NCBI GenBank assembly: GCA_028687915.1
Contig: JAQTZF010000001.1
Span: 1,058,634-1,096,538 of the forward strand
Source: Candidatus Daviesbacteria bacterium
GTDB lineage: Bacteria > Patescibacteriota > Microgenomatia > Daviesbacterales > UBA10151
Length of the DNA: 37,905 nucleotides
Reading direction: 5' to 3'
Shown here piece after piece: positions 1 through 37,905 of the stretch (the stretch's first letter is position 1; every line of letters starts with the position of its first letter). The position numbers were made by a program, and so were the translations under genes. The notes beneath the pieces were generated by a model. It saw only the letters and a program-made list of their open reading frames with translations, did not search any database and was not told the DNA's origin.

Positions 1-561
1 AGCTACAGATTCTAAGGTATCACCAGATTTAACTGTATGTGCTACCCCTGTAACAGGTAATATCCGAATTTTTTGACCAGGTTTAATAGTAACACTATCT
101 AAATTATTCTCCCATTTAATAGTGTCATTGGAAATCCCAAAATGTTCAGCTATTGTTGATAAGGTATCACCAGACTTTACTTCATATTCAATCACCTCTG
201 AACGTGGTTTTTGTGAAATTGTAGTGCGGGTATCATATAAAGAGTTTAAAACTGGATCATCAATTGAACTTTGATCATAAATATTTACAAAACGAGGATC
301 TTCAGGACTAACACCAGGAAAAGAAGCAGATAAAATTGTTTGTCCGCCAAATGCACCAGAAGTAATAATACCAAAAGCTGACAAGCCTACCATGCTACCA
401 TGCCAGATTTTTTTCTGTAATATTCCCCTTTTGAACATCAGCATATCTACACTAAGATTTTTAAAGGCTTCAAAGAGTGAGGCAAGATAAACCACTTTTT
501 GGTTTAAATAAACGAGTAAAAAACTGATAAAAAGACGTAGGTCTTTAAAGAGAGAATTCAC
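1..561 (-). CDS. LysM-domain secreted/anchored protein (partial, runs off the left edge)
   Basis: Reverse-strand translation gives ...VIEYEVKSGDTLSTIAEHFGISNDTIKWENNLDSVTIKPGQKIRILPVTGVAHTVKSGDTLESVA, i.e. one full LysM and the start of a second. Start ambiguous: GTG at 561 (VNSLFKDLRLFISFLLVYLNQ...) or ATG at 444 (MLMFKRGILQ...). Confidence 0.8.
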   Translation of the reverse strand, partial: MNSLFKDLRLFISFLLVYLNQKVVYLASLFEAFKNLSVDMLMFKRGILQKKIWHGSMVGLSAFGIITSGAFGGQTILSASFPGVSPEDPRFVNIYDQSSIDDPVLNSLYDTRTTISQKPRSEVIEYEVKSGDTLSTIAEHFGISNDTIKWENNLDSVTIKPGQKIRILPVTGVAHTVKSGDTLESVA

Positions 562-11300: not shown

Positions 11301-11702
11301 GTTGCAAAACATCAAGCTTTGCTTATTGGTTAAAAATCTCTTTTCAACCCTACCTCTCTACATTTTCAGTTATTAAAGTTCTTAACCTCTAACCATTAAT
11401 ATAAGACCCTGATTACCCATTAATTGCTTTACCTGATCCGTTAAAGGATTAATCTTCATGCGATTTATTTTTCTCAAACCTAATTTTTTTGATTTAAAAG
11501 TTATCATTGGGGCTATCATAGTACAGCAAAAATTATTTGTCAAGATAACTGAATCCTATAGCTTTATTTAGTTAAAATAATGATAGGCTTGTAGTAATAT
11601 TAAGAGGATACGATGATACGATTAGGTTAATACAACAATCTAATCTGGAGGATACTTTTTTGATTTCCACCGAAATTTCAGGGTGTGGATAAGTCCTTAT
11701 AT

Positions 11703-12027
11703 GCGTCTTTGGTGGCAAAGACGCCCAAAGCCACTTTGACGGGAAGTGTTACTTCTGAAATGACGGGTCCTGTCGCTACGGTATCTCAGGTGCGTCCTCG
11801 TTCGCTTCGCTCACTTGCGGTCGACTCCCGAGACCTCTCCTCCGCGCCACCCGTCATTTTTATTTTTTTTGCCCGCTTGGAATAAGGGCGTCAAACGAGG
11901 AAGTTTTTGACTGCAGGGGGAGGTCCGAACGCTTTCGGAGGGGGTAAACTTTCCCCCGCAAAGCAAAAACTGACGAGTAGTCCGACTTCCGCGGGCAGAG
12001 TTTTGGTACTTTTGCGGCCAAAAGTAC
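11703..12027 (+). repeat. GC-rich repeat element, copy 1 (bounded by hairpins)
   Basis: Left hairpin GCGTCTTTG-GTGG-CAAAGACGC (11703-11724), 102-bp core with 11-bp TIR AAATGACGGGT/ACCCGTCATTT (11758-11859), right hairpin GTACTTTTG-CGGC-CAAAAGTAC (12006-12027). Inverted second copy at 27890-28234. Confidence 0.85.
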
Positions 12028-18497: not shown

Positions 18498-18612
18498 AAG
18501 TTGACAATATCATACACTATCAGTTGCTATATTGACTACTATTATAATAAGCCGTAATGTTAATGTATACACCTATGCAAGTATATACTTTGCCTACATA
18601 AACCTTATCAAT

Positions 18613-21600
18613 ATGTCTCTGCCCAAAAGTCAAAATCAACAATTAATCCCCATTAGTGCCGCTTCTAAACTTTTAGGCGTGTCTGTAGATACTATTCGCC
18701 GTTGGGAAAAAAAAGGCCTGCTTCAATCCACTAGGCCAAATGGCAAAGACCGTTATTTTTCTGTAGATGATTTAAAAGAATTTCAAGCTACTAAAACGCT
18801 TTCCACCTCTGAAGCTGCAAAACACTTAGGTGTTTGTCCCACTACGCTAAGAAGACTAGACAAAAAAGGCCTTATTAAGGCCAATAGAAATACAAATGGC
18901 GCCAGAATCTTTAGCGCGGAATCTTTAAAAAATATTAATGAACAAATTACTATCCCTAAGCTAAGGCTAAAACACATTTCAGATGAATATTTATCTATTC
19001 CCCAGATCAAGCCTAAGTTAACCACTGTGGAAGAATTACTGGATATGAGCAGAAAAGAAGCTGAAAAACAATATACTGCTCCTTTAACAGAAGGTAAATT
19101 ACAAGAATATGCGAGTGTTGCCTCTGTCATTACAAGTGGAGCAAAGCAATCCAGCCATAAGATTACCACAGCTATTTTAGAAGTTCACAATAATAAACTA
19201 ACTCTTAGTCTTCTTTCTGGAACATTAGCTTCACTTTTCTTAGCTATTTTGATATTAGCCAGAGTTTCAAACTTTCAATTACCATGGCAACAAAAAGAAA
19301 TAGTCAGAAACCAAGTGCCTTCTGCTATAGACCAAAATGTTTTAGCTGCTACTACCAGTAATTATTACATTGATTTGAATTCAGATTTAATATTAGAAAA
19401 AGATTTAGCAGTAGGAGGATCAATTAATAGAATAAATATTATTCCTGGAGGAGATTCTTCTGTTAAAAACTTAACAGTTTCAGTTCCTGCAGTTACTTTA
19501 GATCAGGATTTATCTACTACTTCTTCCCCTACCTTTCAGGGATTAACAGTACTTTCTCCAATAAATGCTCCCTCTGCTTCTACCTCAACTTTAAACTTAA
19601 CAGGTACAAAGGATCAGATTACTTTTAATGTATCTGGTGTTAAGAGTACATTAAGCTGGACCCCTACTTCTGCTGTTACTTTAACCTTACCTAATATCAC
19701 AGATACTTTGGTTTCTAAAACCAGCACTGATACTTTAACTAATAAAACAATTACTGCAGGAGATAATACTTTAACAGGAAGTTTTACAGGTATTACAGGA
19801 TTGGGCACAATAGGAACAGGTACCTGGAATGGAACTAAGATAGGAGCTACTTATGGAGGTACAGGTATCACAACATATACAACAGGTGATTTACTATATA
19901 GCAGTGCATCAAATACCTTAGCTAATTTAGCTGTAGGAACCAATGGACAGGTATTAACAATTAGTAGTGGTTTACCTACCTGGGGAGCTGCTGCTGCTTG
20001 TGCTGATTGTATTGTGACTGATCCTTCCACAGCCCAGTCTATTACCCCAACTGTAGCAGATATCACCACATTAACTCTTCAGGCTGCCCCATCAGGGACT
20101 GCCAATATCTTTGATGTTAAAAGCAATGATGGACTAACTTCATATTTTTCTGTTGATTCCTCAGGTAAGATGTCCTCTTCTGCTTTTCAGTTAACTGATA
20201 TTAACAATGCTGTGGTAGGAACAGCTGTACCAAATGGATGGACTTTGGGAGCAGGAGCATATACTTACAGAAGAATATTAACTGTTACTAATAATGACGG
20301 CTCAAATACTCTACCAATTAATCACCAGGTGACCCTATCCTTAACTGGAGCAACAGCCACAGATGTTTGTTCTAATTCTTTATCTAATGCTAATGATATA
20401 CGAGTAGCCTACTCTACCAATGGATCTACCTTTACTGAGATAGCCAGAAATATTACCAGGACTTGTGGTACTCCCACAGTTGATGTTTCCTTCCAACTCC
20501 AGGGAACCATAGCTCCATCTACCTCAAATACTAACTATTACCTCTACTATGGTAACTCAAGCATAGCCACCACCCCTTCAACTTACACCTATGATACTGT
20601 GACTTTAGATGATGGGGATACTGTAGGAAACTGGACCAGTAATGATGGCACTAATTTTACCCTTTCTCAGGAAACTACCATCAGAAATAATGGAACTGGT
20701 TCTGTTAAAGCAGTTGCAGCTACCCCAACCTGGGGAAATGCTGGAACATTTTCTACCACTGGCCAAGGACAATTACTTGATACGACAAATGGCGGATATG
20801 CCACAACTGCTACTGTCGGTGGCACAACTTATCTTTATTCCCTAGGCGGAGGTTGGAACACTAATGTCAGCAAATCTCAACTCAATTCCTCTGGTGATGT
20901 TGGTGCTTTTACAAACTCTGGTCAGGGACCATTACCACTGGATATGGGTAGTTTTTATGCAACGACTGCAACAATAGGTAGCACCACCTATATGTATATT
21001 ATTGGAGGAGTTTCTCAAGCATATGTGGATCAATCAACTGTATATAGAGCTACTATTGATTCTTCAGGCAATGTTAGTGCTTTTTCTACTACTGGTCAGA
21101 CTCAGTTATCATCAGCCAACCAAATCATCACCGGTATTACCCATACAACTGGAGGCACAACTTATGTTTATGTTCCTTTTGCTGCCAACAGCACTTTATA
21201 CAGAGCTCAAATTGATACTTCTGGTAATGTTGGAGCTTTTGATACCACAGGACAGGGTCAGGAACCCATTAATGATGCCTTTTATTACACCAAAGCCACT
21301 TTTGGAGGCACAACTTATGTTTATGCTTTGAGATTTTTTGGTAATGGAGTATACCGGGCTGAAATTGATGAGTTGGGTAATATGGGAGCTTTTTCTGCTA
21401 CGGGACAGTCCCAAACAATGCCCCAACTCAATAATATTTACCCCCAAATAGCCACAGCTGGAGGAGTTAACTATATTTATTTGATTGGCGGACAAAATGG
21501 AGGCAGCGTCAGGCAATCTACTGTTTACCGGGCTGCTTTAGATTCATCTGGGAATGTGGGAGCCTTTTCTACTACCAATCAATCCCAGTTGCCACAACTT

Positions 21601-24600
21601 ATATCAAATGGGCAGGCTGCCACAGCCACTATTGGAGGAACTTCATATCTATATTTCTTAGGCGGAGTTCTAGATGGTTTTGGTAATATTTCTACTGTCT
21701 ATAAATCAACTATCTCTAATCCCCCTACTTATACAGCTACCAAAACTCTATCCTCTACTGATTTATCTGGTAAAGGATCTATATCTTTTTATGTATATTC
21801 ATCCCGTACTGGCAGCTATTCTAACTTAGAATTCTCTGAGGATGGAAATACCTGGCAAACAACTGCCTACACTATCTCTCAGGCTAATACCTGGGAGGGA
21901 AAAAGTTGGGATATTTCAGGTTTGAGTAGTTCTGTCAAAGATGCTGTAACCAGTTTAAGATTCAATATTACTGATTCTACAACTGGCTTTACCATGTACA
22001 TGGATAATATTACTGCAGTACCATCAGCTTATGCTGGTACTGCTCCTATAGTATCTGCTGCTAGTAAAGTACTTGGATCTTCCAATCTAGCCCTCAATGC
22101 TCAGGGAACAGGGTTGGTAGCTATTAACTATGATGCCAACTCTCTAGCAGGAACAGGAGGGTTAAATGTTTACAACGGTGGTACCACTTCTCTCTTCTCT
22201 GTAGGTAGCTCTGGAGCAATTACAGCCACCGGAGCTATGTCAGGAGTATTAGGTATTACTACTACAGGAGATATCCTGCCTTCAACTAACAATACATATA
22301 ATTTAGGTTCTAATACTGCCAGATGGCAGGATATATACCTTGGCCCAGCTTCTATCCATCTTGGTACTTCTACTACTGATGAGTATAAAATCTCCTATGA
22401 TACAACCAATAACAGATTAGGTTTTAATGTTAATGGTTCAGGAAATGATGAGATTGTTTTTGATTCTTCCGGGTTTGTTGGTATTGGGACAACCTCTCCA
22501 ACTGTAGCTTTGGATGTAGTAGGAAGTGCTTTAATTACTCCTGCCACTGGTTCTACTACTGCTTTAACACTCCGGGCTGCTCCAACTGGAGCTAATAATA
22601 TTTTTGATGTGTTATCCAATGATGGGACTACCTCATACTTTAGTATTGATTCCTCGGGACAAATGTCTGCCTCTGCTTTTAAATTAACTGATTCTGCCAA
22701 AGCTATTATTGGGACTGCCATTCCAGGGGCCTGGGAAAATATAGCTACAGTTCCTGAGAATGATTTTACCTACAGAAGAGCTGTTTCTGTTACAGCTACA
22801 GGTAATTTAGCTGCTAATTATGAGGTGACTATGGATATTAGTACCCCTGCTACAGCTTCCCAAATTTATTCCAATACCTACAACCAGGCAGATCCATATA
22901 GAGACTTTAGATTGTTTTACACAACAAACGGAGGATCAAGTTATACAGAAGTACCAAAAAATGTGAGTGCCTTTACTAACTCCCGGGTAACTTTTACCTT
23001 CCAATTACAAGCCCAAATTGATGATGCCCAAACATCAAGTACTAATTACTACCTTTTTTACTCAAACTCTGCTTATGCAGGTATGTCTACCCCTCCTACC
23101 TACACAGGAGATCTAAACTGGGACTCACATACAGAATCAACTACTGGTTGGACTAGTGCTGATTCTGCTTACCAGTTATCTACAACCACTTCCCCTACTT
23201 CCCAAGCAGGTACTTATTCATTAAAGGAAATAGCTACTGTAGATAGGATGGGAACTTTTGCTATTACTAACCAAGGTCAATTAGGTGCTACTTTAAATGA
23301 CCTTGCTGCTATAACTACCACCATTGGTTCTTCTACCTATGTTTATGTAGTTGGAGGAAATACAGGAGCTGCTGATGTAGCTACTATTTACAAATCAACA
23401 ATTAGCTCAAATAATCTTTCTGCTTTTGCCACCACTGCCTATCCTTTACCTCAAGAATTATCTGGAGCAAGCGGTGTTATTTCTTCTTCTGCCGATATAG
23501 GCACTGGAGCTCTGGGACCTTTGAATCTAACAGATGGGACTGGCTGCCCTACTGGAGCAGACTTTGATTGGAACGGCACCACTTGCACAATTAAAACCAC
23601 TAGAGTATACAACTATACAACTATCACAATCCCTCCGGGGAAAATTTTAACAGCCAATCAAGGAATCATTCCTACTCTTAAAGCTACTACCAGCGTTTCC
23701 ATTACTGGCACAGGATCTATTAATTTAGATGGTAAGGGCAGTGCTGCAGGAGCAGGAGATAATCCAGGATCAAATGGTGGTGGCACAGGATGTGCTCGTG
23801 GAGGGGGTGGAGGCGGTGGTCATGGAGCTGCAGGAGGTGCGGGTGCATCAGTTAGCACGAACACTGAGGATGGTTGTAGCGGAGCGGGTGGTGCTGGTCC
23901 AAGAGGAGAAGCAAATGCTAATCAACTAGCCTTGGGTAGTGGCGGCGGAAATAGTGCCGGAGCTGGAGGCGCAGGTGGTGGAGCTATTAAAATAATTAGT
24001 GCTGGTAATATCACCATTGAGGCCAGTAGTGTCATCAGTGCTAATGGAGCCAATGCAGCTGGAACTGGGGGTGGAGGTGGAAGTGGTGGAAGTATTGTGC
24101 TTCAATCCTATGGATCCATTGGCAACAGTGGCACTATCCGAGCTAATGGCGGTCATGGTAGCGACAATTCTGCAACTTATAATGATGCTACAGGTGGCGG
24201 TGGTGGCGGTGGTGGCGGATTAATTACGCTACAGGATGCTGACGGTTCAATTGCTGGCACTATCACGGCTACTGGTGGTAATGGCAGTGCAGGCTATGAA
24301 TACCATGTTTCGACTGAAGATACTAGTATTTCTGCTAGCGCGGCTGGGAGCACCTTTACCGTCTCTCCTTCTATCCTGAGCACAGATTATTACCTTTATG
24401 TCTTGGGTGGTAAAAATGGATTAAACTACCGGTCAACAGTATATAAAGCAACTTTAAATAGCACCACTGGAGATACTTCAACTGAACTTGCTACAACTTC
24501 ACAAGATCAACTTGATGCACCATTAACAGGGCATACCACCCTTACCCAAACAGTAAATGGGTCCAACTTTATTTATGTATTAGGAGGGTATACAGGTTCT

Positions 24601-26985
24601 GCTTATGTATCCAGTGTCTACAAATCTACTATTAATGGTACTGGTGATATTGTTGCCTTTGCCACTACTTCCCAAGGCCAACTTCCTTTACTACTTTCTA
24701 ATCATGCCCAAGCTACAGTTACCATAGGAAGTACAACTTACCTCTATGTAGTAGGTGGTAAGAGCGGTGATTCTACTTACATGAGTACTGTATATAAATC
24801 TAATATTGATCCTACTAGTGGAGATATCCAGGCTTTTACCACAACTTCCCAAGGACAATTACCTGTAGCTTTGTATGATCTATCAGCTACCACAGCTACA
24901 GTTGGATCTGTTAATTATATTTATGTGTTTGGTGGTAATAATGGATCAGCTAATGTTTCAACAGTTTACAGAGCAACTATTGATGGTTCAGGAAATATAG
25001 GAGCATTTAGTACTACTGGACATACTCAACTTAATGCCATTTTGTCAGGACATCAAACTGTAACTAATACCTCTTCAGGTACCACCTATTTCTACACCAT
25101 AGGAGGAACTTCTGCCTCTGCTGTATCTACTGTATATAGATCTACTACCACCTCTGATATGACTAACTTCTATATAGAAAAGAAGATTTCTGATACAGGA
25201 ATTGATTTAAGTAATAAAAATGATATTACTTTCTCCTTTTATTCTACAGATAATGTGGCAGATCTCATGGAAGTAGCTTTTTCAGAAGATGATACTTCCC
25301 CCACCTACTCACACACCTACACCTTTAGGGGTAATCCTGCTGATGGTTGGAGAAGTATTGATTGGGATATTTCCAGTCCTGGTATAGCTGCTGCTGATAA
25401 AAACTCAGTGAAATGGATTAGGTTTAAAGTAAATACTGCCAGGACTACAGAATTTACCACATATATTGATAATATCCAGGTTCAAACAGAGGCAACAGGA
25501 AACGATACTACCTCTGCCTTAACCTCAGCCTTAGGAGCTGCTAATTTAACCTTAAATGCTCAGGGTACTGGTTTAGTAAGGGTTAATTACTCTGATCCTG
25601 CTGATCCTACCAACTTCCCTAACCTAGCAGGTTCAGGTGGGCTGGTTGTATATGATGGATCTAATACAGCAATCTTTTCTGTAGGATCAACTGGAGCTAT
25701 TACTGCTACAGGAGGATTAACTTTCTCTGGAGTAACTACTGATATAACTACAGTAAGTAATCAGGATTTGATAATTTCTCCTAATGGTACAGGTAAAGTT
25801 GGTATTGGAACTACTGCTCCTGGGTACTTGCTACAGGTAGGTAATGCTGGAGATGGTAGTGAGGCAAGAGCTAATGCCTGGAATTCTTTGTCTGATTCAA
25901 GGCTAAAGGAAAATGTAGCTAGTATCTCTGGAGCTTTGGATAAAGTACTGGCTTTAAATGGAGTAAGTTTTGATTGGATATCAAATGGACAAAAGAGCTT
26001 AGGATTTGTAGCTCAAGAAGTAGAAGGAATATTACCTGAGGTAGTATCAACAGGAATAGATGGATATAAATCAATTAATTATTCTGCTATTACCCCAATA
26101 ATAATAGAAGCCTTAAAAGAATTAAATACTAATATAGACTTAAGATTTAAGAATAATGATTTAAAAATAAGCGGAGCTTTTCTACGAATTAAAGATCTGG
26201 AAGATAAGTTAGCTTCAATCTCTGCTCAAATTCAATCATCAAATTCAGCTGATTTAGCTTCTGTATCAACCCAATCAAACATAAGTGAGTTAAATTTAAC
26301 CCCACCAGAGCAGCTTTTGGCAACAAACAGTGCAAAATTAGTTGATTTATCTGTTACCTCTGATGCTACTTTTTCAGGACAATTAGCAGCCTACTCTGCT
26401 ACTATCTCTGATACTTTTAAATCACTTGGTAATACATATTTGGGGAATACCAGTATTGCAGGAGACTTTAATATAGATGGAACAATGAATATCAGTAGAA
26501 ATTCCATAAGCACCTTAGATGCCTTATATATCCAAAACGGACCTTTGGCAGGAGATATAGATTTCTTTAATGGACAAGTTATTATTGATAATCAAGGCAA
26601 CATTAAAGTTGGAGGCAACCTGGAAATAGAAGGAGCCATAACCATTAGCGCATTTGCCGGAGAAAACTTAAAAACCGGAGATGCTGTCTATATTTCTGCA
26701 GATAAAACTGTAAGCAAGGCTGATTCCATAATTGCAGGTAAAACTGGTGTAGTTGGCTTAGTTCTATCAGGAGTTAATAAAAACCAACCAGTTATAGTTG
26801 CTATTAATGGCAAAATAAACGGATTAACTAATCTTAAAGCAGGCAGTAAATATTATCTTGGTCAAAACGGGCAGTTAACCACAACCCTACCTTCCAGCTC
26901 TGTAAAAAATATACAGGTAGGAGTTGGTTTCAGCTCCACTCAATTATTAATTCAAATCTTTGACTTTAATGGTTTGATAAATTAA
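18613..26985 (+). CDS. giant surface fibre protein 1: two MerR-type HTH motifs, one TM, beta-propeller-like repeats, glycine-rich insert, peptidase S74/intramolecular-chaperone-like domain
   Basis: ORF track starts at 18532; ATG at 18613 (MSLPKSQNQQLIPISAASKLLGVSVDTIRRWEKKGLL) is in frame and gives a more plausible N-terminus. TM LTLSLLSGTLASLFLAILILA; kelch-like blades (TTATIGSTTYLYVVGG..STVYKATID..G.I.AF.TT.QGQLP); S74-like SDSRLKENVASISGALDKVLALNGVSFDWI...GFVAQEVEGILPEVV. Confidence 0.92.
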   Translation: MSLPKSQNQQLIPISAASKLLGVSVDTIRRWEKKGLLQSTRPNGKDRYFSVDDLKEFQATKTLSTSEAAKHLGVCPTTLRRLDKKGLIKANRNTNGARIFSAESLKNINEQITIPKLRLKHISDEYLSIPQIKPKLTTVEELLDMSRKEAEKQYTAPLTEGKLQEYASVASVITSGAKQSSHKITTAILEVHNNKLTLSLLSGTLASLFLAILILARVSNFQLPWQQKEIVRNQVPSAIDQNVLAATTSNYYIDLNSDLILEKDLAVGGSINRINIIPGGDSSVKNLTVSVPAVTLDQDLSTTSSPTFQGLTVLSPINAPSASTSTLNLTGTKDQITFNVSGVKSTLSWTPTSAVTLTLPNITDTLVSKTSTDTLTNKTITAGDNTLTGSFTGITGLGTIGTGTWNGTKIGATYGGTGITTYTTGDLLYSSASNTLANLAVGTNGQVLTISSGLPTWGAAAACADCIVTDPSTAQSITPTVADITTLTLQAAPSGTANIFDVKSNDGLTSYFSVDSSGKMSSSAFQLTDINNAVVGTAVPNGWTLGAGAYTYRRILTVTNNDGSNTLPINHQVTLSLTGATATDVCSNSLSNANDIRVAYSTNGSTFTEIARNITRTCGTPTVDVSFQLQGTIAPSTSNTNYYLYYGNSSIATTPSTYTYDTVTLDDGDTVGNWTSNDGTNFTLSQETTIRNNGTGSVKAVAATPTWGNAGTFSTTGQGQLLDTTNGGYATTATVGGTTYLYSLGGGWNTNVSKSQLNSSGDVGAFTNSGQGPLPLDMGSFYATTATIGSTTYMYIIGGVSQAYVDQSTVYRATIDSSGNVSAFSTTGQTQLSSANQIITGITHTTGGTTYVYVPFAANSTLYRAQIDTSGNVGAFDTTGQGQEPINDAFYYTKATFGGTTYVYALRFFGNGVYRAEIDELGNMGAFSATGQSQTMPQLNNIYPQIATAGGVNYIYLIGGQNGGSVRQSTVYRAALDSSGNVGAFSTTNQSQLPQLISNGQAATATIGGTSYLYFLGGVLDGFGNISTVYKSTISNPPTYTATKTLSSTDLSGKGSISFYVYSSRTGSYSNLEFSEDGNTWQTTAYTISQANTWEGKSWDISGLSSSVKDAVTSLRFNITDSTTGFTMYMDNITAVPSAYAGTAPIVSAASKVLGSSNLALNAQGTGLVAINYDANSLAGTGGLNVYNGGTTSLFSVGSSGAITATGAMSGVLGITTTGDILPSTNNTYNLGSNTARWQDIYLGPASIHLGTSTTDEYKISYDTTNNRLGFNVNGSGNDEIVFDSSGFVGIGTTSPTVALDVVGSALITPATGSTTALTLRAAPTGANNIFDVLSNDGTTSYFSIDSSGQMSASAFKLTDSAKAIIGTAIPGAWENIATVPENDFTYRRAVSVTATGNLAANYEVTMDISTPATASQIYSNTYNQADPYRDFRLFYTTNGGSSYTEVPKNVSAFTNSRVTFTFQLQAQIDDAQTSSTNYYLFYSNSAYAGMSTPPTYTGDLNWDSHTESTTGWTSADSAYQLSTTTSPTSQAGTYSLKEIATVDRMGTFAITNQGQLGATLNDLAAITTTIGSSTYVYVVGGNTGAADVATIYKSTISSNNLSAFATTAYPLPQELSGASGVISSSADIGTGALGPLNLTDGTGCPTGADFDWNGTTCTIKTTRVYNYTTITIPPGKILTANQGIIPTLKATTSVSITGTGSINLDGKGSAAGAGDNPGSNGGGTGCARGGGGGGGHGAAGGAGASVSTNTEDGCSGAGGAGPRGEANANQLALGSGGGNSAGAGGAGGGAIKIISAGNITIEASSVISANGANAAGTGGGGGSGGSIVLQSYGSIGNSGTIRANGGHGSDNSATYNDATGGGGGGGGGLITLQDADGSIAGTITATGGNGSAGYEYHVSTEDTSISASAAGSTFTVSPSILSTDYYLYVLGGKNGLNYRSTVYKATLNSTTGDTSTELATTSQDQLDAPLTGHTTLTQTVNGSNFIYVLGGYTGSAYVSSVYKSTINGTGDIVAFATTSQGQLPLLLSNHAQATVTIGSTTYLYVVGGKSGDSTYMSTVYKSNIDPTSGDIQAFTTTSQGQLPVALYDLSATTATVGSVNYIYVFGGNNGSANVSTVYRATIDGSGNIGAFSTTGHTQLNAILSGHQTVTNTSSGTTYFYTIGGTSASAVSTVYRSTTTSDMTNFYIEKKISDTGIDLSNKNDITFSFYSTDNVADLMEVAFSEDDTSPTYSHTYTFRGNPADGWRSIDWDISSPGIAAADKNSVKWIRFKVNTARTTEFTTYIDNIQVQTEATGNDTTSALTSALGAANLTLNAQGTGLVRVNYSDPADPTNFPNLAGSGGLVVYDGSNTAIFSVGSTGAITATGGLTFSGVTTDITTVSNQDLIISPNGTGKVGIGTTAPGYLLQVGNAGDGSEARANAWNSLSDSRLKENVASISGALDKVLALNGVSFDWISNGQKSLGFVAQEVEGILPEVVSTGIDGYKSINYSAITPIIIEALKELNTNIDLRFKNNDLKISGAFLRIKDLEDKLASISAQIQSSNSADLASVSTQSNISELNLTPPEQLLATNSAKLVDLSVTSDATFSGQLAAYSATISDTFKSLGNTYLGNTSIAGDFNIDGTMNISRNSISTLDALYIQNGPLAGDIDFFNGQVIIDNQGNIKVGGNLEIEGAITISAFAGENLKTGDAVYISADKTVSKADSIIAGKTGVVGLVLSGVNKNQPVIVAINGKINGLTNLKAGSKYYLGQNGQLTTTLPSSSVKNIQVGVGFSSTQLLIQIFDFNGLIN

Positions 26986-26995
26986 TGTAAAGATA

Positions 26996-27847
26996 ATGCC
27001 TAAATTATTAATAAAATCTGTTCTTATTTTTCTATCATTACTTGTTGTTGTAACAGCTAATATTCCTTTGTGCTTTGCTCAACTAGGTTCTGTTGATTTT
27101 ACCTACACATATAATGTTCCTGATAAAGAAATTACTGATGGAGACATTATTTCTTCTTCTGCTGAAAAAGGCTTTTTCAGATCTGATTTTGCCTATGATT
27201 CTCATGCTTTTGGAGTAGTCCAATTATCACCTTTAATAGTCTATAAAGGTGTTGATAGTACCGGCACACCTATTGCCAGAACAGGCACAGCTACAGTCAA
27301 TGTAACCACCTTAAATGGCCCAATTATCCCTGGTGATTTTGTTACTACTTCAGAGATTGCTGGTAAAGGTCAAAAAGCCGTGGTTTCCGGAAATGTGATT
27401 GGAGTAGCTTTAACTGGTTTAGGATTAGCTGATGGAACAGAATTTGATTATCAGAGAAAATCTACCACTAATCAACAAAACCCATCACAAAAATTCAGAA
27501 CTGGTAAAGTAACTGTTGCTTTAAGAATGGAATATGCAGAAATCACCTCAGCCAGAACTGCATTAAGGTTATTAGATTCATTTAATGCAGCATTATTTAC
27601 CAATGTGCAAAATCCTGATCAATTTGTAAAAATATTCCGCTATATTACAGCCATAATCATAGTGCTTATTTCATTTGCTATTGGCTTTTTTACTTTTTCC
27701 AGAGCCATACCAAAAGGAATTGAGGCTATTGGTAGAAATCCCTTAGCACAAAAAACCATTATCTTCTCCATAGTCCTAAATATAGCATTTACTGTTATAA
27801 CAGCCGTAGCAGGCATAGCTGCCGCCATCATGATCCTTAAATTCTAA
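26996..27847 (+). CDS. F-ATPase subunit c-like membrane protein with N-terminal extracytoplasmic domain; no TM2 carboxylate
   Basis: 283 aa; signal peptide MPKLLIKSVLIFLSLLVVVTANIPLCFA, ~180 aa ectodomain, then FRYITAIIIVLISFAIGFFTFSRAIPKGIEAIGRNPLAQKTIIFSIVLNIAFTVITAVAGIAAAIMILKF: two TM helices joined by an EAIGRNP polar loop typical of subunit c. First gene of the F1-like cluster. Confidence 0.8.
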   Translation: MPKLLIKSVLIFLSLLVVVTANIPLCFAQLGSVDFTYTYNVPDKEITDGDIISSSAEKGFFRSDFAYDSHAFGVVQLSPLIVYKGVDSTGTPIARTGTATVNVTTLNGPIIPGDFVTTSEIAGKGQKAVVSGNVIGVALTGLGLADGTEFDYQRKSTTNQQNPSQKFRTGKVTVALRMEYAEITSARTALRLLDSFNAALFTNVQNPDQFVKIFRYITAIIIVLISFAIGFFTFSRAIPKGIEAIGRNPLAQKTIIFSIVLNIAFTVITAVAGIAAAIMILKF

Positions 27848-27889
27848 TAAATAGAGCCTACTGAAATGCCCACAATAATTTTTTTTAAA

Positions 27890-28234
27890 GCAACTTTGAC
27901 CGCAAAGTTGCGCAAACTCGCCTGACGGAAAGTCGACCTAAAGCTCGTCGTCTGCTAATCGGGGAATGGCACCCCTTCTGCCTTTCGCTTCGCTTCAGCA
28001 GGCTTCCCCTGATATCAGCCTCCTCGCTTCTTAACGGTCTTTGTTTCAAGTCAGGCACAAAATAAACAACAACTATAAATGACGGGTGGCGCGGAGGAGA
28101 GGTCTCGGGAGTCGACCGCAAGTGAGTGAAACGAACGAGGACGCACCTGAGATACCGCAGCGACAGGACCCGTCATTTTAAGAAAAAATCTTCTCTCGAA
28201 TTGGCTTTTGCGACACTTTTGCCACCAAAGACGC
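27890..28234 (-). repeat. GC-rich repeat element, copy 2 (inverted relative to copy 1)
   Basis: 102-bp core at 28077-28178 is the reverse complement of 11758-11859 with 3 mismatches; boundary hairpins GCAACTTTG-ACCG-CAAAGTTGC (27890-27911) and an imperfect one at 28210-28234. Confidence 0.85.
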
Positions 28235-28292
28235 AAAATAAAAATGTATTTGGGAATTGAATTTTTAGGAAAATTCTACTATTCTTTAGTTA

Positions 28293-29003
28293 ATGCCCAA
28301 AACTCTACTTTTTGAAATTATTGCTTTAATAGCCAGCCTCGCAGTTGCCATAATCTCACTTGCACTTTATTTAGGAGAATACTACAAAAGAACTAAGGAA
28401 AAAAATGCAAAATCAGGCTTTCAAACAATTGATGCAACAGAAGCAAAAAGCCTCAATGTTCTATACAGAGCTATTAAAAAAGCCCAGGCAATTATAGGAA
28501 ATGCTGAGCTGGCAGGAATTAAAATAGGTGCAGAAAATCGTTTAGCAGAAAAAAAGCTTGAAGGAACTTTTGAGTCACAACTCAATGTTGCCAGAACTGA
28601 TCTGGAAAAAGAAATGTCTTCCCAGATGAATAAAACCTATTCTGAGTATATAAAATTTCTGGAAACATTAAAAGAACAAAATAATCAGATTCAGGCCATT
28701 AATCAGGAGGCAATAAAACAAAGAGCAAATTCTATTTTTGATAAATTTGAACAAAATTTAGGCACTTTTTTAACTTCAACTGAACAAAAAAGTGTGGCTT
28801 CTATTGAATTGGAACTTAGATCTGCCAGACAGTTGATTGAAACTTATAAAACAGAGCAGATAGCCATCATTGATGAAAATATTATCTCAATTTTAGAGAG
28901 AACACTTGCTTTGGTTTTAGCTAAAAAAATCCCCTTAAAAGATCAGGTTGACCTAGTCTATGAAGCTTTAAGTAAAGCCAAGGTGGAAAAATTTATTGCA
29001 TAA
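28293..29003 (+). CDS. atpF: F-type ATPase subunit b-like protein
   Basis: 236 aa; single N-terminal TM, long coiled coil, position between c-like and delta genes. Confidence 0.8.
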   Translation: MPKTLLFEIIALIASLAVAIISLALYLGEYYKRTKEKNAKSGFQTIDATEAKSLNVLYRAIKKAQAIIGNAELAGIKIGAENRLAEKKLEGTFESQLNVARTDLEKEMSSQMNKTYSEYIKFLETLKEQNNQIQAINQEAIKQRANSIFDKFEQNLGTFLTSTEQKSVASIELELRSARQLIETYKTEQIAIIDENIISILERTLALVLAKKIPLKDQVDLVYEALSKAKVEKFIA

Positions 29004-29012
29004 TACTCAGCT

Positions 29013-29513
29013 ATGGATACCAATTTATTTGAACTAATTTTATCTGACAGTTATATTAAAAATCAGGCTGAAAAAAGGATTTTAGCCTTAAAAAATTATA
29101 TACTGGGGGGGATTTTTATTGATAGTAAAGAAAAAAAACTTAAAGAAGCAGCTACCGATAATCCTAAATTAGATTTATGGATTAACTCAATAGATAAAAA
29201 GGTGCTTTCTAAAATTACTCCTCAAAATATCTATTCAACTTTTGAAGTTTTAGAAAAAGAGATTAAAGCAATTGAACCTTTAATATTATATCTCCCCTAT
29301 GAATTACCAGATGAAGAAGTTGCCCAGATTGGTACAAAATTACGAGCTGACTATGGTAAAAAATTTCTAATGGAGATTACCATTGACCCCAGTTTAATTG
29401 CCGGTTGTGCCTTATCCTTTCGTGGAATTTATAAAGACTACTCTGTTAAACAAAAGATTACTGATAATAAACAAGAGATTCTAGCAGCATTTAGACAATA
29501 TGTTAAACACTAA
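29013..29513 (+). CDS. atpH: F-type ATPase subunit delta (OSCP-like)
   Basis: 166 aa; C-terminal FLMEITIDPSLIAGCALSFRGIYKDYSVKQKI matches the conserved delta C-terminus pattern. Confidence 0.85.
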   Translation: MDTNLFELILSDSYIKNQAEKRILALKNYILGGIFIDSKEKKLKEAATDNPKLDLWINSIDKKVLSKITPQNIYSTFEVLEKEIKAIEPLILYLPYELPDEEVAQIGTKLRADYGKKFLMEITIDPSLIAGCALSFRGIYKDYSVKQKITDNKQEILAAFRQYVKH

Positions 29514-30987
29514 ACCTCAGGAAATCGGCTTCGTTAAACAAACCAGGGAATTTATTGCTTCGGTGGATGGCTTACCAAGCGCAAGAATTAACGATTTAGT
29601 GGAAAATGAACAAGGAGTCAGAGGGTTAGTCAGCGCTTTATCCAAAAATAGTGTTGAAATCTGGCTGCTTGATGAAGGAAATGTTCAACCAGGTCAAAGC
29701 TTTAAAAGTACTAATACCCGTTTAACTGTTCCTTTGGGAAACTTTTTATTAGGCAGAGCTGTTAATCCTTTGGGTGTAGCTATTGATGGTCGCCCACCGT
29801 TTGCCAAAACAGAACAAACTCAAATTGCAGAACTGGATGGACCTGCACCAGGCATTAATGCCCGAAGATTTATTGACAGACAGCTGGAAACAGGGATAAC
29901 CATTGTTGACTCTCTTATCCCCATAGGCAAGGGCCAGAGGGAATTAGTTTTGGGAGATGCCCGTTCCGGTAAACAGGATTTCTTGATTGATATTATCATC
30001 AACCAAAGAGAGAAAGATGTTATTTGTATCTTTGCTGCGATTGGTAAGCCCTTGGCAGAAGTTAGAAACATCATTGATACCCTCAAATTTAACAAAGCCT
30101 TAGAGTATACCGTGATTGTTGCCACAGCTTCTTCAGACCCTGCTCCTTTAATTTTTATTACACCACAAACAGCTTTTACAATTGCTGAGTATTTTCAAAA
30201 ACAAGGTAAAGATGTGTTGATTATCTTGGATGATTTAGCTAATCATGCCAAAATTTATCGAGAAATAGCATTACTAGGTTCACGCTCCCCTGGAAAAGAA
30301 TCTTATCCTGGAGATATCTTTTACCAACATTCTCATTTATTAGAAAGAGCAGGAAACTTTAAACCAGAAGCTGGTGGAGGTTCGATTACAGCCTTGCCTG
30401 CTATTGAATTTAATCTTAATGATTTTACAACCTTTATCCCTACTAACGTCATGTCTATGACAGACGGACATTTACTTTTTAAATCTGAATATTATCGTCA
30501 GGGTCAAAGGCCGGCAATTGATTTATCATTATCTGTCTCCCGTGTGGGACAACAAACCAAGAGTAATTTAGCCAATCTGATGGCAACAAGGGTTAAGCAG
30601 GTACTAGCCAGGTCTGCCCAGCTTGAATCTGTCAGCCGTTTTGCTTTTGAGCTACCTTTTGCCACCCAGTTAATCCTAAAACAAAAAGACATGTTCACAG
30701 AATTAAAAAATCAGGCTCCCCTAACATTAATTTCTACCCAAGTCCAATTAATTTTGATGGCTCTCCCCTTCACCAATATGATGCAGGATAAAGATAAACT
30801 GTATATTAGAAGATACAAAGATTTAATTGTCAAAGCTTTTACTGAAGATGTTGAATTATCAGCTTTTGCTACAAGTATTTTAAACCTTGCAACTGATGAT
30901 GAATTAATAAACCAATTGAATATTAACCCTGTAATGAAAAAGTTGGATCAAATTATGGCTGGTAAACCAATAACCAAAAAAGTATGA
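29500..30987 (+). CDS. atpA: F-type ATPase subunit alpha (divergent P-loop)
   Basis: 495 aa; LETGITIVDSLIPIGKGQRELVLGDARSGKQ, SSDPAPLIF, SPGKESYPGDIFYQHSHLLERAG, IPTNVMSMTDGHLL, RPAIDLSLSVSRVG. Confidence 0.96.
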   Translation: MLNTKPQEIGFVKQTREFIASVDGLPSARINDLVENEQGVRGLVSALSKNSVEIWLLDEGNVQPGQSFKSTNTRLTVPLGNFLLGRAVNPLGVAIDGRPPFAKTEQTQIAELDGPAPGINARRFIDRQLETGITIVDSLIPIGKGQRELVLGDARSGKQDFLIDIIINQREKDVICIFAAIGKPLAEVRNIIDTLKFNKALEYTVIVATASSDPAPLIFITPQTAFTIAEYFQKQGKDVLIILDDLANHAKIYREIALLGSRSPGKESYPGDIFYQHSHLLERAGNFKPEAGGGSITALPAIEFNLNDFTTFIPTNVMSMTDGHLLFKSEYYRQGQRPAIDLSLSVSRVGQQTKSNLANLMATRVKQVLARSAQLESVSRFAFELPFATQLILKQKDMFTELKNQAPLTLISTQVQLILMALPFTNMMQDKDKLYIRRYKDLIVKAFTEDVELSAFATSILNLATDDELINQLNINPVMKKLDQIMAGKPITKKV

Positions 30988-31820
30988 GTACAGTTAAACA
31001 AATACGAGAACAACTTGATGCCAGTGAGTCATTAAAATTAGTGGCACAAGCTTATACAGAAATTTCAGCTTTAAAGTTGGAAAAAATTAGGTCTGGAATA
31101 GAAAAAAACAGAGACTTCTTTCAAGAGATTACAGAGGTTTATCATGTTGTAAATACAGAAGCCTCAAAGCTGAAGTTACAATTACGTCCTAAAAAAGGCA
31201 CAGTAAGTGTATTAATCACCTCTAACCAACATTTTTATGGAGCATTAGAAAAAGAACTGGTTAAATTCTTTGTTTTAAATACCACTAAGTTTGCAACAGA
31301 CAGAGTTGTTATTGGATCAACTGCCAAAGAGTTTTTACAATCATTTAATTATTTCCATCCTTATCAACAGGTTATTTTAAAAACAGACATTCCAACATCA
31401 GAAGAAATGAAATCTATTGTTGATAAGGTAAGTGGTTATGAACAAATCTTAATTTACTATTCCAGAATGCACTCTATCTTAACTCAGGAACCACATGTAG
31501 TAGATGTTGTACAAAAACCGCCAACCTTCTTTTTAAAATCCCAAGCTTCTACGATTAGTTATATCTTTGAACCAGAATTAGTAGAGATGTTATCATTTTT
31601 TGAAGACCAGATTACTATGTTATTAATTGAACAAACATTCCTGGAATCAGAACTGGCCAGAGCAGCTGCCAGACTTACTTCTATGGATCAGGCCCAATTT
31701 GCAGCAGATGACATAATCCTTAAAATTAAACAAGAATTAGCCAGAGCAAAGAAATCAATTGAAAATGTTAATTTACTGGAAAATATAGCAACTATGAAAG
31801 CTTTTCATGATAGGGCATAA
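30984..31820 (+). CDS. atpG: F-type ATPase subunit gamma
   Basis: 278 aa; N-terminal VKQIREQLDASESLKLVAQAYTEISALKLEK and C-terminal ARAAARLTSMDQAQFAADDIILKIKQELARAKKSIENVNLLENIA helices of the gamma coiled coil. Confidence 0.9.
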   Translation: MSTVKQIREQLDASESLKLVAQAYTEISALKLEKIRSGIEKNRDFFQEITEVYHVVNTEASKLKLQLRPKKGTVSVLITSNQHFYGALEKELVKFFVLNTTKFATDRVVIGSTAKEFLQSFNYFHPYQQVILKTDIPTSEEMKSIVDKVSGYEQILIYYSRMHSILTQEPHVVDVVQKPPTFFLKSQASTISYIFEPELVEMLSFFEDQITMLLIEQTFLESELARAAARLTSMDQAQFAADDIILKIKQELARAKKSIENVNLLENIATMKAFHDRA

Positions 31821-31917: not shown

Positions 31918-33315
<1,398 letters not shown>

Positions 33316-33317
33316 AT

Positions 33318-33650
33318 ATGGCCACCACTCCTTTTGCAAATAATAACCAGCCAACTCCAAAACCTGCTGCTAATTCAAAGCAGGAAGTCTTAAATGTGAG
33401 AGTCTTCTCACCTAAACGAGAATACTACCACGGACCCGCTGTTTCTATTTCCTCTGTTAACTCAGCAGGACCATTTGATATTCTTGCAGAACACGGAAAC
33501 TTTATTACCCTAGTCAAAAATGACCCAATTATTATCCGTTTGCCAAATAAGCAAAACCTTACATTTACCTTTCCCCTAGCAGTATTTTATATTAGAAAAA
33601 ACTCAGTCTCTATTTTTACTGATATCGAATTAGAAAGCCTTCCTGTTTAA
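33318..33650 (+). CDS. atpC: F-type ATPase subunit epsilon, beta-barrel domain only
   Basis: 110 aa; LNVRVFSPKREYYHGPAVSISSVNSAGPFDILAEHGNFITLVKNDPIIIRLPNKQNLTFTFPLAVFYIRKNSVSIF; no C-terminal helical hairpin. Confidence 0.88.
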   Translation: MATTPFANNNQPTPKPAANSKQEVLNVRVFSPKREYYHGPAVSISSVNSAGPFDILAEHGNFITLVKNDPIIIRLPNKQNLTFTFPLAVFYIRKNSVSIFTDIELESLPV

Positions 33651-33944: not shown

Positions 33945-36900
33945 ATGAAAAGCTTGCCCAATAATACATCAAAAAAATTCGTTAAAATTGGTGAAGCTGC
34001 AGCAAAATTAGGCGTCTCCATTGATACCCTTCGAAGATGGGAAAAAGCAGGCAAGATTGAAACAATTAGAACCCCAGGCGGCACCAGGTTTTACTCCATT
34101 TCCACTATCTCAGATATAACTAAAACCCCTAAAAAATACCAAAGAAATGATACAGTAAATGCTATTAAGCCAAAAGCAACCTCAATCGAAGACTTGTTGA
34201 GCATTGTTCGAAATGAAGAAGCACCTAAGTCTCAAACCCCTGGCACGGATCAAAAATGGCAGGAATATGTTGACACAAGAGTTATCCAACCTAAAGAAGT
34301 AACAGTAATTTCTCAGACAGAGATAGAGAATGAAATAGTAAATAATAAAGCAGGAATTGGTTTAAAATATAAACCCTTAGCCATAACTATTTTTTCTGGA
34401 AGTGTAGTTGTAATTTTCTTAGCCTTCTTAGTTATAGCCAAAGCTTCTAACTTTAATCAACCTATCAATTTATGGAACATTGCTACTGGTCAAAAACAAG
34501 CAAAAGACACTGCTAGCCAGTCAGTTACAGATTCCAATGTTCTTGCTGCTACCTCCAATAATTATTACCTTGATTTAAATTCAGACTTAATTATTGAGGG
34601 TGATTTAGCAGTTGGCAAAACTATCAACAGACTGCTTCTAACCCCCAACGAGGATGGATTCTCTATTTCCGGTGGTACCACCAGCAGAAAGATGACAGTT
34701 GTGGGCGGAGATGTTACCTTAGATCAAGACGTTTCAACTAATGGTTCTCCAACATTCCTAGGTTTAGCTCTACCTGCTAAACAAATTTCTATAGGCAATC
34801 AAACCATCACCTTACCTGAGGCAACCGGCACAGTATTACTTGATTCAACTACTCAAACTATAACAAACAAAACCATTTCCGGATCATCTAATACTTTCTC
34901 TAATATCCCCACTTCTGCTCTAGCTAATACTAAGATAACTATTAATCCTGGTACTAACTTATCTGGTGGTGGTGATATTACTTTAGGTAGTTCAGGTACA
35001 TTATCACTTAAAGATGATGTCTCCCTCTCTACAGTAACAGCATCATCCTATCTATCACTATCTCAAACTACGGCACCAACAACCACAACAGGCAAACTTT
35101 ATAATGTTTCAGGCTCTCTTTATTGGAACGGAACAGACCTTACTGGTGGTGGTGCAATCCCAGAGGGAACTTCCGGCCAGACACTCTACTTTAATGATAC
35201 TACCCTTACTGCTACTTCTAATCTTTTTAACAATGGTACTAATGTAGGTATTGGAACCCAAGTCCCTGGTGCAATTTTAGATGTCCGATCGAGTTTTGCT
35301 GATTCAAGTACTGCTCAAAATTATAACTTATTTGCCCAAGCCAGCGTAACAGCTGGTGAAACCACCAACTCCCCTTTTGTTGATGGAGGTTATCTTGAAT
35401 CAAACTTTAGTGGTACAGATACTCAATATGGAATCAGAGGATTAGATGCCCGAGCATATAACTCTTCTACAGGAACAGTCTCCCGGGCTTTTGGGGCTTT
35501 TGACTTTGCCCAAAATACCAGTACCGGAATAATCACCTCTGCTGCAGGAACATTGAGCCGGGTAGTAAATTATGGAGCTGGAACAATTAATTCTGGCACA
35601 CTATTTTATGGCACTACTTCCAATGGCAATGCATCCGGCACTATCGGAACTCTTTATGGTTTAAGACTTGATTCATGGGAAAACCTGGGAACAGTGGATA
35701 CTTCTTATGGTATCTATATGAATGACTCAATTGATGTGGGAACTACCAGATATGCCCTCTACTCTGCCTCTACCTCTGATTCCTATTTTGCTGGTGATGT
35801 GGGAATCGGAACAACCAGTCCAGGATTTAAGTTAGATGTTAACGGCATAGTTAATGCAACTGCCCTTTATGTTAATGGTACTCCTTATATTGGTTCACAG
35901 TGGACTACTGCTGGTTCTGATATTTATTACAATGATGGTAATGTTGGAATTGGAACCACCACTCCAACATCTTTTACTTTAGAAGTTGGTGGACCCATTG
36001 GACCAGACGCTAATAACACCAGAGATATTGGATCACCTACTAAATATTTTGCAAATGCTTACATCACCAATTTAGTCAGTGGTAGTTCCGGAACAGTTGG
36101 TTATTGGGACAGAACCGGAACTGTCCTTTCTCCTGCAAATACCAGTGACAGTATAAGTTTAACCTTAGGAGCTGTTAATACCTCCGTTACAGCCAATTCA
36201 GTTACCCTTAATCCTGTCACTAATACTTCTGGTGATGTTACCCTGAAAGGTTTATCAGTAGGTTTTGGAGCTGGAACCGGTATTAATCAAAATGGGGCTG
36301 GCTCTTCCACTACTTTTAGCGGCGCTGATATTACCATCCCAGCTTTAACTCAAACTGATGGAACCTTAACTGCCAACGGAGTCCAGGTCACTACCCCATC
36401 CTCTATTACCACTGGAGGCACAGCCAATGGTTTAAAAGTTGTAGCTGCCGGTATTGGGGCAGGAGCATTAAATGGAGTCAGTATTGGTACTATCACTGCT
36501 GGCGATGGTACTGAAACAGCCTTAAATATTGGTACTGGTTGGGACAGCGCATTAACTGTAAATGGAGTAAATGTTGTAAATGGTTTGGGAGTTACTCAGG
36601 TAGCAGGAGGTGGTACAGGAATAGCTTCTTACACAGCTGGCGATTTAATTTATGCTACAGATACCACAACCTTAAATAAATTAGCCGCAGGTATTCTAAA
36701 TAACGGCAAGGTCTTAGTCGTTTCTGATGGTTCACCAACCTGGGGAACCATTGATGGATCAGTTTGTTCTAATTGTTTAGTTAATAATCCAACAGGCACT
36801 CAAACTATAGCTCCAACCGGACAAGGCACCACTGGATTAACTATTAGACAAACTTCAACTGCCTTACCAACTCAAGATATTTTTTCTATTACCAATGCTG

Positions 36901-37905
36901 CTGGTGATGTTAAATACTTATCTGTTTCCAATAGCGGTGTAGTCAATTTAACAGGAACCAGCTCTGAAACCTTAACCCTAACCCCTTCAACAGATACAAC
37001 AGCCCTGACTTTAGTTGGTACAAATGTTTTAACTCAAAAATTATCCTACTTTAATGCTAATAATAACCAGGGCACTGTTTTTGATTTATCCTATGGAGCT
37101 GCCCAAAGCTTAGCTGGAGATTTAACAGGACAAAGTATTAATTTAGCAACCAACCTAACTCCAACCAATTACTCTGTAGTTGGAGAAGCTATCACCCTAC
37201 CACCAGTTACCAACACCCATACCACAGGAACTGTATATAACCGTGGCTTAGTAGTAACTACTGGTACAGGTTCTGGTGTAAACCAAAATGGATCAGGTGG
37301 AACAACAATTTATTCCGGAGTTGATTTAACTATGCCTGCTTTAACTCAAACCGCAGGTACTTTAACTGCAAATGGAATGTTAGTTACCACCCCCTCTTCT
37401 ATAACTACCGGAGGAACAGCCAATGCAATTAATGTTTCTGCTTCGGGAGTAGGAGCAGGAAGCTTAAATGGTATTAATATAGGAGCTATTTCTTCTGCGG
37501 GAGCTGGTACAGAAACAGCCCTAAATATTGGTACTGGCTGGGATATGGGGATTAAATTAGGAGATGATTCAAAAGTAGGACTTGGTACCACTTCAGGTTA
37601 TATTGAATTTGATAACCAGGCCACCAATGAAATTAATTTTATTAGTGCAAATGTTGGTATTGGTTCTACTGCCCCTACAGGTAAGCTGGATATTGTTGAT
37701 ACTTCAAATACTGCTGCTTCTTTGGTTTTAACCAATAATACTGCTACTACTATTGGGGCTGGAACAAATACTTTAGGGGTAATAGATCTACAATCCACTT
37801 CCTTAACTACTGGTAATTTTATGAATATGGAGTTAAATGCTCTTTCTTCAGGTAAAGGATTTAATCTAACTTCTACTTCTACTGCTCTCTCTTCTGGATC
37901 TTTGG
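33945..37905 (+). CDS. giant surface fibre protein 2 (partial, open at right edge), paralogue of fibre protein 1
   Basis: Frame traced from ATG at 33945 at many points to the window end with no stop seen. MerR-type HTH KFVKIGEAAAKLGVSIDTLRRWEKAGKIETIRTPGGTRFYS, TM PLAITIFSGSVVVIFLAFLVIA, NVLAATSNNYYLDLNSDLIIEGDLAVGKTINR closely matches fibre 1 (NVLAATTSNYYIDLNSDLILEKDLAVGGSINR). Absent from the ORF track, probably because it has no stop in the window. Confidence 0.92.
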   Translation, partial: MKSLPNNTSKKFVKIGEAAAKLGVSIDTLRRWEKAGKIETIRTPGGTRFYSISTISDITKTPKKYQRNDTVNAIKPKATSIEDLLSIVRNEEAPKSQTPGTDQKWQEYVDTRVIQPKEVTVISQTEIENEIVNNKAGIGLKYKPLAITIFSGSVVVIFLAFLVIAKASNFNQPINLWNIATGQKQAKDTASQSVTDSNVLAATSNNYYLDLNSDLIIEGDLAVGKTINRLLLTPNEDGFSISGGTTSRKMTVVGGDVTLDQDVSTNGSPTFLGLALPAKQISIGNQTITLPEATGTVLLDSTTQTITNKTISGSSNTFSNIPTSALANTKITINPGTNLSGGGDITLGSSGTLSLKDDVSLSTVTASSYLSLSQTTAPTTTTGKLYNVSGSLYWNGTDLTGGGAIPEGTSGQTLYFNDTTLTATSNLFNNGTNVGIGTQVPGAILDVRSSFADSSTAQNYNLFAQASVTAGETTNSPFVDGGYLESNFSGTDTQYGIRGLDARAYNSSTGTVSRAFGAFDFAQNTSTGIITSAAGTLSRVVNYGAGTINSGTLFYGTTSNGNASGTIGTLYGLRLDSWENLGTVDTSYGIYMNDSIDVGTTRYALYSASTSDSYFAGDVGIGTTSPGFKLDVNGIVNATALYVNGTPYIGSQWTTAGSDIYYNDGNVGIGTTTPTSFTLEVGGPIGPDANNTRDIGSPTKYFANAYITNLVSGSSGTVGYWDRTGTVLSPANTSDSISLTLGAVNTSVTANSVTLNPVTNTSGDVTLKGLSVGFGAGTGINQNGAGSSTTFSGADITIPALTQTDGTLTANGVQVTTPSSITTGGTANGLKVVAAGIGAGALNGVSIGTITAGDGTETALNIGTGWDSALTVNGVNVVNGLGVTQVAGGGTGIASYTAGDLIYATDTTTLNKLAAGILNNGKVLVVSDGSPTWGTIDGSVCSNCLVNNPTGTQTIAPTGQGTTGLTIRQTSTALPTQDIFSITNAAGDVKYLSVSNSGVVNLTGTSSETLTLTPSTDTTALTLVGTNVLTQKLSYFNANNNQGTVFDLSYGAAQSLAGDLTGQSINLATNLTPTNYSVVGEAITLPPVTNTHTTGTVYNRGLVVTTGTGSGVNQNGSGGTTIYSGVDLTMPALTQTAGTLTANGMLVTTPSSITTGGTANAINVSASGVGAGSLNGINIGAISSAGAGTETALNIGTGWDMGIKLGDDSKVGLGTTSGYIEFDNQATNEINFISANVGIGSTAPTGKLDIVDTSNTAASLVLTNNTATTIGAGTNTLGVIDLQSTSLTTGNFMNMELNALSSGKGFNLTSTSTALSSGSL

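Follow-up and report, generated by a model that had tools for sequence, protein, structure and literature searches.

What does an F1-type catalytic head drive when the c-type protein encoded beside it lacks the carboxylate on which ion translocation depends? The question is raised by an operon in a stretch of 37,905 nucleotides from a Candidatus Daviesbacteria bacterium (the window; GenBank assembly GCA_028687915.1, contig JAQTZF010000001.1, positions 1,058,634 to 1,096,538); the machine that it encodes probably spends ATP on moving something at the cell surface and does not make ATP. The features of the locus are collected in Table 1.

Table 1. Features of the c-like operon and its neighbours (window coordinates; residue numbers refer to the c-like protein).
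Feature	Position	Strand	Basis
Giant surface protein 1, ORF of 2817 aa, likely start near 18613	18532..26985	+	ORF, Pfam, PHROG
c-like (putative rotor) protein, 283 aa	26996..27847	+	ORF, AlphaFold2, PDB and profile matches
Signal peptide, residues ~1-28; exported beta domain, 35-181; linker helix, 188-201			
TM1, in helix 207-247; GRNP loop, 246-249; TM2, 249-282			
Exported beta domain of c-like, ~150 residues	27098..27538	+	Sequence matches, Foldseek
GRNP cytoplasmic loop, residues 246-249	27731..27742	+	GRNPLA invariant in orthologue sets
TM2 without Asp or Glu	27740..27841	+	DNA translation, orthologue alignments, canonical-c control, HHalign
b-like stator: N-terminal TM; helix of ~230 residues, nearly continuous	28293..29003	+	ORF, HHalign, AlphaFold2 (pLDDT 86)
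delta/OSCP subunit, family match in C-terminal half	29013..29513	+	Pfam PF00213, E 1.2e-8
alpha-like subunit	29500..30987	+	ORF, Pfam, motif check
gamma subunit	30984..31820	+	Pfam PF00231, E 7.5e-27
beta-like catalytic subunit	31936..33315	+	Pfam, motifs, NCBIfam
epsilon, beta-sandwich domain only	33318..33650	+	PF02823
Giant surface protein 2 (MerR HTH, TM, beta-rich)	33945..37905	+	Cut by window/contig end

A c-type hairpin with a vacant ion site

Modelled with the family alignment, the c-like protein is predicted by AlphaFold2 (pLDDT 89.8) to consist of a signal helix, a beta domain, a short helix and two long helices. Profile, fold and model agree that the last two helices, with the polar cytoplasmic loop between them, are a c-type hairpin: HHalign matches it to the source genome's own c subunit with E 2.9e-9, the best E of the c-like profile against c subunits in the PDB is 0.0012, and superposition on c subunits gives TM-scores (to target) of up to 0.86 (rmsd 1.4 Å, 67 columns). 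For a hairpin this short and helical, the Foldseek E-values of the c-subunit matches are only modest (0.03 and above); its homology to the c subunit is supported by profile and fold together. TM1 does not have the usual GxGxGxG packing motif, which we count against our best reading, the ring geometry being unknown. Since the N terminus is exported, the hairpin would have the topology found in an ordinary c ring, that is, loop inside and both ends outside; in ordinary c rings, a loop of the GRNP type touches gamma and epsilon.

After GRNP, TM2 of the c-like protein reads LAQKTIIFSIVLNIAFTVITAVAGIAAAIMILKF (translated from the DNA). Counted from P249, N262 is P+13, T266 is P+17, V267 is P+18 and T269 is P+20; the ion-site position, P+18, is therefore V267 (codon GTT, nucleotides 27794-27796), and this Val stands opposite the canonical Glu in a gapless profile alignment with the source genome's own c subunit. 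The first-pass annotation had reported a TM2 with no Asp or Glu, with Asn at +13, Thr at +17 and +20, and Val at +18, and a recheck from the DNA reproduces both translation and positions. It had also described TM1 as free of acidic residues; the sole acid nearby is E243, which lies in the cytoplasmic turn KGIEAIGRNP, where an equivalent acid is common to ordinary c subunits.

The essential TM2 carboxylate of the ion-translocating F1Fo c subunit is likewise absent from the orthologue sets. A sequence search found relatives in 37/45 genomes of the same family (some of these matches are to the exported domain only, inside giant ORFs), and all 30 of the orthologues extracted from this family are without Asp or Glu in the membrane core of TM2, three of them having Glu at P+3, on the cytoplasmic side. 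A wider set of 90 proteins, composed of species-level relatives and class-level loci and drawn partly from the same genomes as the family set, has no Asp or Glu within P+8 to P+32 (0/90); Glu is found at P+7 in four, Asn is retained at P+13 in 79/90, and GRNPLA and the Ile at P+6 are invariant. The missing carboxylate is seen again in 16 further loci, most of them belonging to different families and classes. As a control, P+18 is Glu in every canonical c subunit examined from 21 genomes of this family (21/21). The first-pass claim of a c-like hairpin that lacks its essential carboxylate is thus upheld; an isolated variant, which would have refuted it, is ruled out by the conserved absence, as are a frameshift, chance and sequencing error.

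Judged from their sequences, these ~90 putative orthologues with GRNPLA but no acid in the TM2 core span Microgenomates and further CPR groups. A species-level scan yielded 133 relatives, the best 80 of which mainly bear the names Candidatus Daviesbacteria, Gottesmanbacteria, Levybacteria, Roizmanbacteria, Woesebacteria, Amesbacteria, Shapirobacteria, Curtissbacteria and WWE3; Saccharibacteria and Parcubacteria are each the name of a single record. Class-wide, 139/281 genomes were matched at E 1e-12, some via the exported domain alone; phylum-wide, 39/380 were matched at E 1e-30. At one locus (L242, G342:C93:186000-204000) a c-like gene has no recognized F1-like genes adjoining it; at another (L243, G539:C31:47000-66000) two c-like genes flank a single F1-like operon, and the beta encoded there branches deepest in the F1-like clade.

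The exported beta domain is preceded, in nearly all members of the family alignment, by an Ala-Gln pair typical of a signal-peptidase site. Its fold resembles those of phage pre-neck appendage and tail proteins (Foldseek E down to 2e-9), and relatives of the domain are also found inside giant surface-protein ORFs, of up to ~4500 aa, in the same genomes.

An F1-type operon without an a subunit

The seven genes of the window operon lie on one strand in the order c-like, b-like, delta, alpha, gamma, beta, epsilon; this order recurs in the loci of relatives, with occasional inserted, split or unrecognized genes, and is kept, together with the catalytic motifs, across many families and several classes. 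The F1 catalytic head is present, that is, alpha and beta with Walker A, GER and Arg-finger motifs and, with them, gamma, delta and epsilon. In the source genome, beta has an intact Walker A (GGAGVGKT) and GER motif, and alpha retains its Arg finger (SVSRVG) and has a degenerate Walker A (GDARSGKQ; most relatives have GKT or GKS); among the relatives compared, the beta Walker A is intact in 91/91 proteins and the alpha Arg finger was found in 98/98. The C-terminal ~50 residues of the b-like protein are related to canonical b (HHalign 86%, E 5e-6), and epsilon, judged by PF02823 and by its length relative to canonical epsilon, has no inhibitory C-terminal hairpin. The alpha-like protein begins near the first strand and is without the long N-terminal extension to which delta binds in ordinary enzymes, which may mean an altered stator.

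In a tree, the beta-like proteins are separate from the canonical beta of these bacteria, forming one deep clade (SH-aLRT 100, stem 0.85), and they evolve faster than canonical beta. Beta passes NCBI's atpD cut-off (NCBIfam); alpha and beta also score to T3SS/FliI models, as do all F1 relatives.

A non-coding insert separates c-like from b-like (window 27870-28245), and ~170 of its bases occur a second time (86% identity, minus strand) at G000:C1:1070335-1070501 (window ~11702-11868). In several Woesebacteria-type loci a phosphoglycerate mutase (iPGM) gene adjoins c-like, mostly between c-like and b-like (L134:8721-10457 and L164:1059-2765, both confirmed by Pfam; also L124, L132 and L147). 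The twin motor of Mycoplasma mobile contains phosphoglycerate kinase (PMC11864180); by analogy, both motors may be associated with a glycolytic enzyme. Many Daviesbacteria have, upstream of the operon, a block of LeuRS- and ArgRS-like and, by eye, ComEA- and ComEC-like genes; it does not adjoin the operon in the window and was set aside as background.

The a subunit, with its half-channels and essential Arg, is not among the parts of the c-like operon, and none was found in any c-like operon locus that was read (window and relatives). Elsewhere in the source genome is an ordinary F1Fo (locus L037) that includes a and c, and the genome's single a subunit belongs to it. (In L037 a further gene, of 210 aa, stands between alpha and gamma, at 7774-8406, and the canonical epsilon gene lies ~13 kb away from it, at G000:C1:780333-780569.) A genome-wide profile search of 24 genomes with the c-like operon found one ATP-synt_A match and a canonical ATP-synt_C match above cut-off in 11, the source included, and no match to either PF00119 or PF00137 in the other 13, three of which are single-contig assemblies; the six of these 13 that were searched for alpha and beta have one pair only, the c-like operon thus being their sole F-type operon. 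As far as gene content can tell, borrowing of the missing parts from an ion-translocating F1Fo is excluded in these 13 genomes; sharing of a canonical a subunit as a general explanation is ruled out by the genomes without any a.

Giant surface proteins and the proposed rotary machine

In the window the operon is flanked by genes for giant surface proteins, and most loci of relatives likewise have a large, fibre-like one-TM protein beside it. Giant protein 1 has two MerR-like HTH domains, one TM and a beta-rich ectodomain with Kelch-like and Peptidase_S74 regions (Pfam), and it matches PHROG tail-fibre and S74 profiles. When the contig end was joined to the contig start, the reading frame of giant protein 2 met a stop within 71 bases, with no convincing continuation; the assembly end inside this gene may lie in a repeat. 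A third giant ORF with a MerR HTH (2193 aa, G000:C1:1036540-1037130) lies in the source genome away from the operon.

A MerR-HTH protein with one TM is encoded within 3 kb of the operon at 23/31 loci from the family, 38/68 named loci and 10/14 wider ones; the family and named sets overlap. A separate count by composition identifies fibre-like one-TM neighbours at 20/31, 34/50 and 9/15. Because MerR-HTH one-TM genes are few in each ~1 Mb genome, their linkage to the operon is unlikely to be chance, although this is not a formal test. A surface-protein neighbour is unrecognized in roughly a third of the loci, and its type differs in some. Several loci without a MerR-HTH neighbour have a different N-terminal part, e.g., a pair of integrase SAM-like domains, ahead of the collagen-like or beta repeats, and the cytoplasmic part of some neighbours in other lineages has no Pfam match; on this comparison of sequences, the cytoplasmic head seems to have been swapped between lineages. 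In Gottesmanbacteria and a relative, for example, the neighbour starts with two integrase SAM-like domains (L112:14696-16729; L111, L118, L113), and collagen-like repeats then follow in three of these neighbours.

We lean, with moderate confidence, toward a dedicated F1-type rotary machine that hydrolyses ATP, moves no ions and delivers torque via a crowned c-ring to the cell surface. The absence of ion transport is strongly inferred: a ring without carboxylates and without an a subunit offers no ion path. The alpha3-beta3 head would hydrolyse ATP and drive gamma and epsilon, which would grip the cytoplasmic GRNP loops on a ring of c-like proteins, with b-like and delta holding the head still. 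With an exported beta domain on each c-like protein, the ring would bear an extracellular crown; this crown would pass torque across the membrane to surface fibres, and the load would most likely be the giant one-TM fibre proteins encoded next to the operon. The sequences themselves establish the anatomy of the proteins, their conservation, the missing a subunit and carboxylate, the intact ATPase motifs and the linkage of the genes. Formation of a ring, its rotation and the giant proteins as its load are inferences, that is, hypotheses for which there are no experimental data, and the same is true of the ATPase activity of the complex and its contact with the giant proteins. Still more tentatively, and stopping short of belief, we suggest that this is an unrecognized class of rotary ATPase, old within the CPR, in which the c ring would be the ATP-driven rotor of a surface organelle, the c-like appendage domains would stand outside, and the ring would turn or reel giant fibres that contact host cells.

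Ions might still be moved via the Asn at P+13 or a Thr of TM2, perhaps with help from the canonical F1Fo's a subunit; that Asn is retained in 79/90 orthologues, and one a subunit is indeed encoded in the other F1Fo of the source genome. However, P+13 is more than one turn from P+18, Asn and Thr cannot be protonated and released like Glu, and an a subunit is missing from the operons that were read and from 13/24 genomes altogether, including the three single-contig assemblies; we regard this possibility as highly unlikely. A better case can be made for c-like as a static membrane anchor, with F1 hydrolysis powering the export of the giant proteins, their assembly or their release, on the model of FliI/FliJ or the MIB-MIP ATPase of Mycoplasma. 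The operon is linked to giant surface proteins, its alpha and beta score to T3SS/FliI models (though all F1 relatives do), and in Mycoplasma a surface protease system depends on the Type 3 F1-like ATPase (PMC12994834); yet the operon keeps all parts of its rotor (gamma, epsilon and the c loop) and of its stator (b-like and delta), neither of which an export ATPase needs, and the exported c-like domain points to work beyond the membrane. We consider this account unlikely as a whole, but a head that powers export or assembly of fibres is not excluded.

The N-terminal MerR HTH of the neighbours suggests a third possibility, ATP-fuelled signalling, in which F1 motion would be sensed by the neighbour as a membrane-tethered regulator; because the cytoplasmic part varies by lineage, being an integrase SAM-like pair or without a Pfam match elsewhere, DNA binding is not a shared feature, and we find this reading very improbable indeed. 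Finally, the lost ion site and a subunit, the faster evolution of beta-like and the degenerate alpha Walker A of the source genome might be taken for a functionless, decaying duplicate of an ATP synthase, but a decaying operon would not be expected to conserve gene order and catalytic motifs across such a range of families and classes, nor to be retained in genomes without an ordinary ATP synthase; we give decay next to no credence.

The preferred reading, a machine that hydrolyses ATP and moves no ions, would describe a rotary ATPase that keeps a c-type rotor without ion transport, whose torque must then go elsewhere; it would offer a clean natural test of what F1 torque does once the ion motor is gone. 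For the membrane part of the gliding and MIB-MIP machines of Mycoplasma, which is unresolved, it would also provide a recognizable counterpart derived from c, and it hints that host-dependent CPR bacteria may possess a powered surface structure. A full-text search of open-access PMC, without preprints, found no description of a carboxylate-less F1-like system in the CPR. For annotation, an atpD-level beta match in a c-like operon need not mean an ATP synthase; because beta passes that cut-off, genomes with only the c-like operon could be miscredited with an ATP synthase that they may lack.

Comparison with known systems

The canonical bacterial F1Fo (L037) and the c-like operon share alpha, beta, gamma, delta, epsilon, a b-like protein, a c hairpin and intact catalytic motifs. 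They differ in that the c-like operon has no a subunit and no c carboxylate, its c-like protein carries a signal peptide and an exported domain, its epsilon is without the C-terminal domain and its alpha is without the N-terminal extension. Two defining features of an ion-translocating F1Fo, the carboxylate and the a subunit, have failed, so the name 'ATP synthase' is unfit. The N-type ATPase (alt_F1F0) is similar in being a second F-type operon beside the usual one; N-ATPases are ion-translocating, with c subunits that have carboxylates. Assignment to this type was rejected on the NCBIfam alt_F1F0 models, to which alpha scores 382.7 bits (cut-off 750.5) and beta 422.4 (cut-off 752). Phage pre-neck appendage and tail-fibre proteins with S74-type chaperone regions resemble the exported fold of c-like and domains of the giant neighbours; unlike these proteins, the c-like domain is fused to a c-type hairpin within a bacterial operon.

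The nearest known systems are the F1-like machines of Mycoplasma. The Type 2 (G1/gliding) and Type 3 (MIB-MIP) F1-like X0 ATPases drive surface functions and, like the CPR operon, have a signal-peptide protein with two C-terminal TMs (PMC3369863, PMC11864180, PMC12994834). Alpha and beta fall below the curated cut-offs of all four corresponding NCBIfam models (MSC_0619/0618 and MMOB1660/1670; no joint tree with mycoplasma sequences was made), and beta-like scores higher to the atpD model (476 bits) than to MSC_0618 (377) or MMOB1670 (362); it also scores higher to canonical F1 beta than to G1 beta. A Mycoplasma-type 12-TM X0 protein is absent from the window operon, and no conserved multi-TM gene was seen within the operons of relatives. 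An F1-like alpha/beta/gamma/epsilon operon linked to surface proteins, a trait of Types 2 and 3 (PMC12994834, PMC11864180), is present; as in both types, the F1-like head occurs beside an ordinary F1Fo, is tied to surface proteins and has no recognizable a subunit, and, as in Type 3, alpha is without the N-terminal delta-binding helix. Unlike Types 2 and 3, the CPR operon keeps a recognizable c hairpin with its GRNP loop, a b-like stator and delta.
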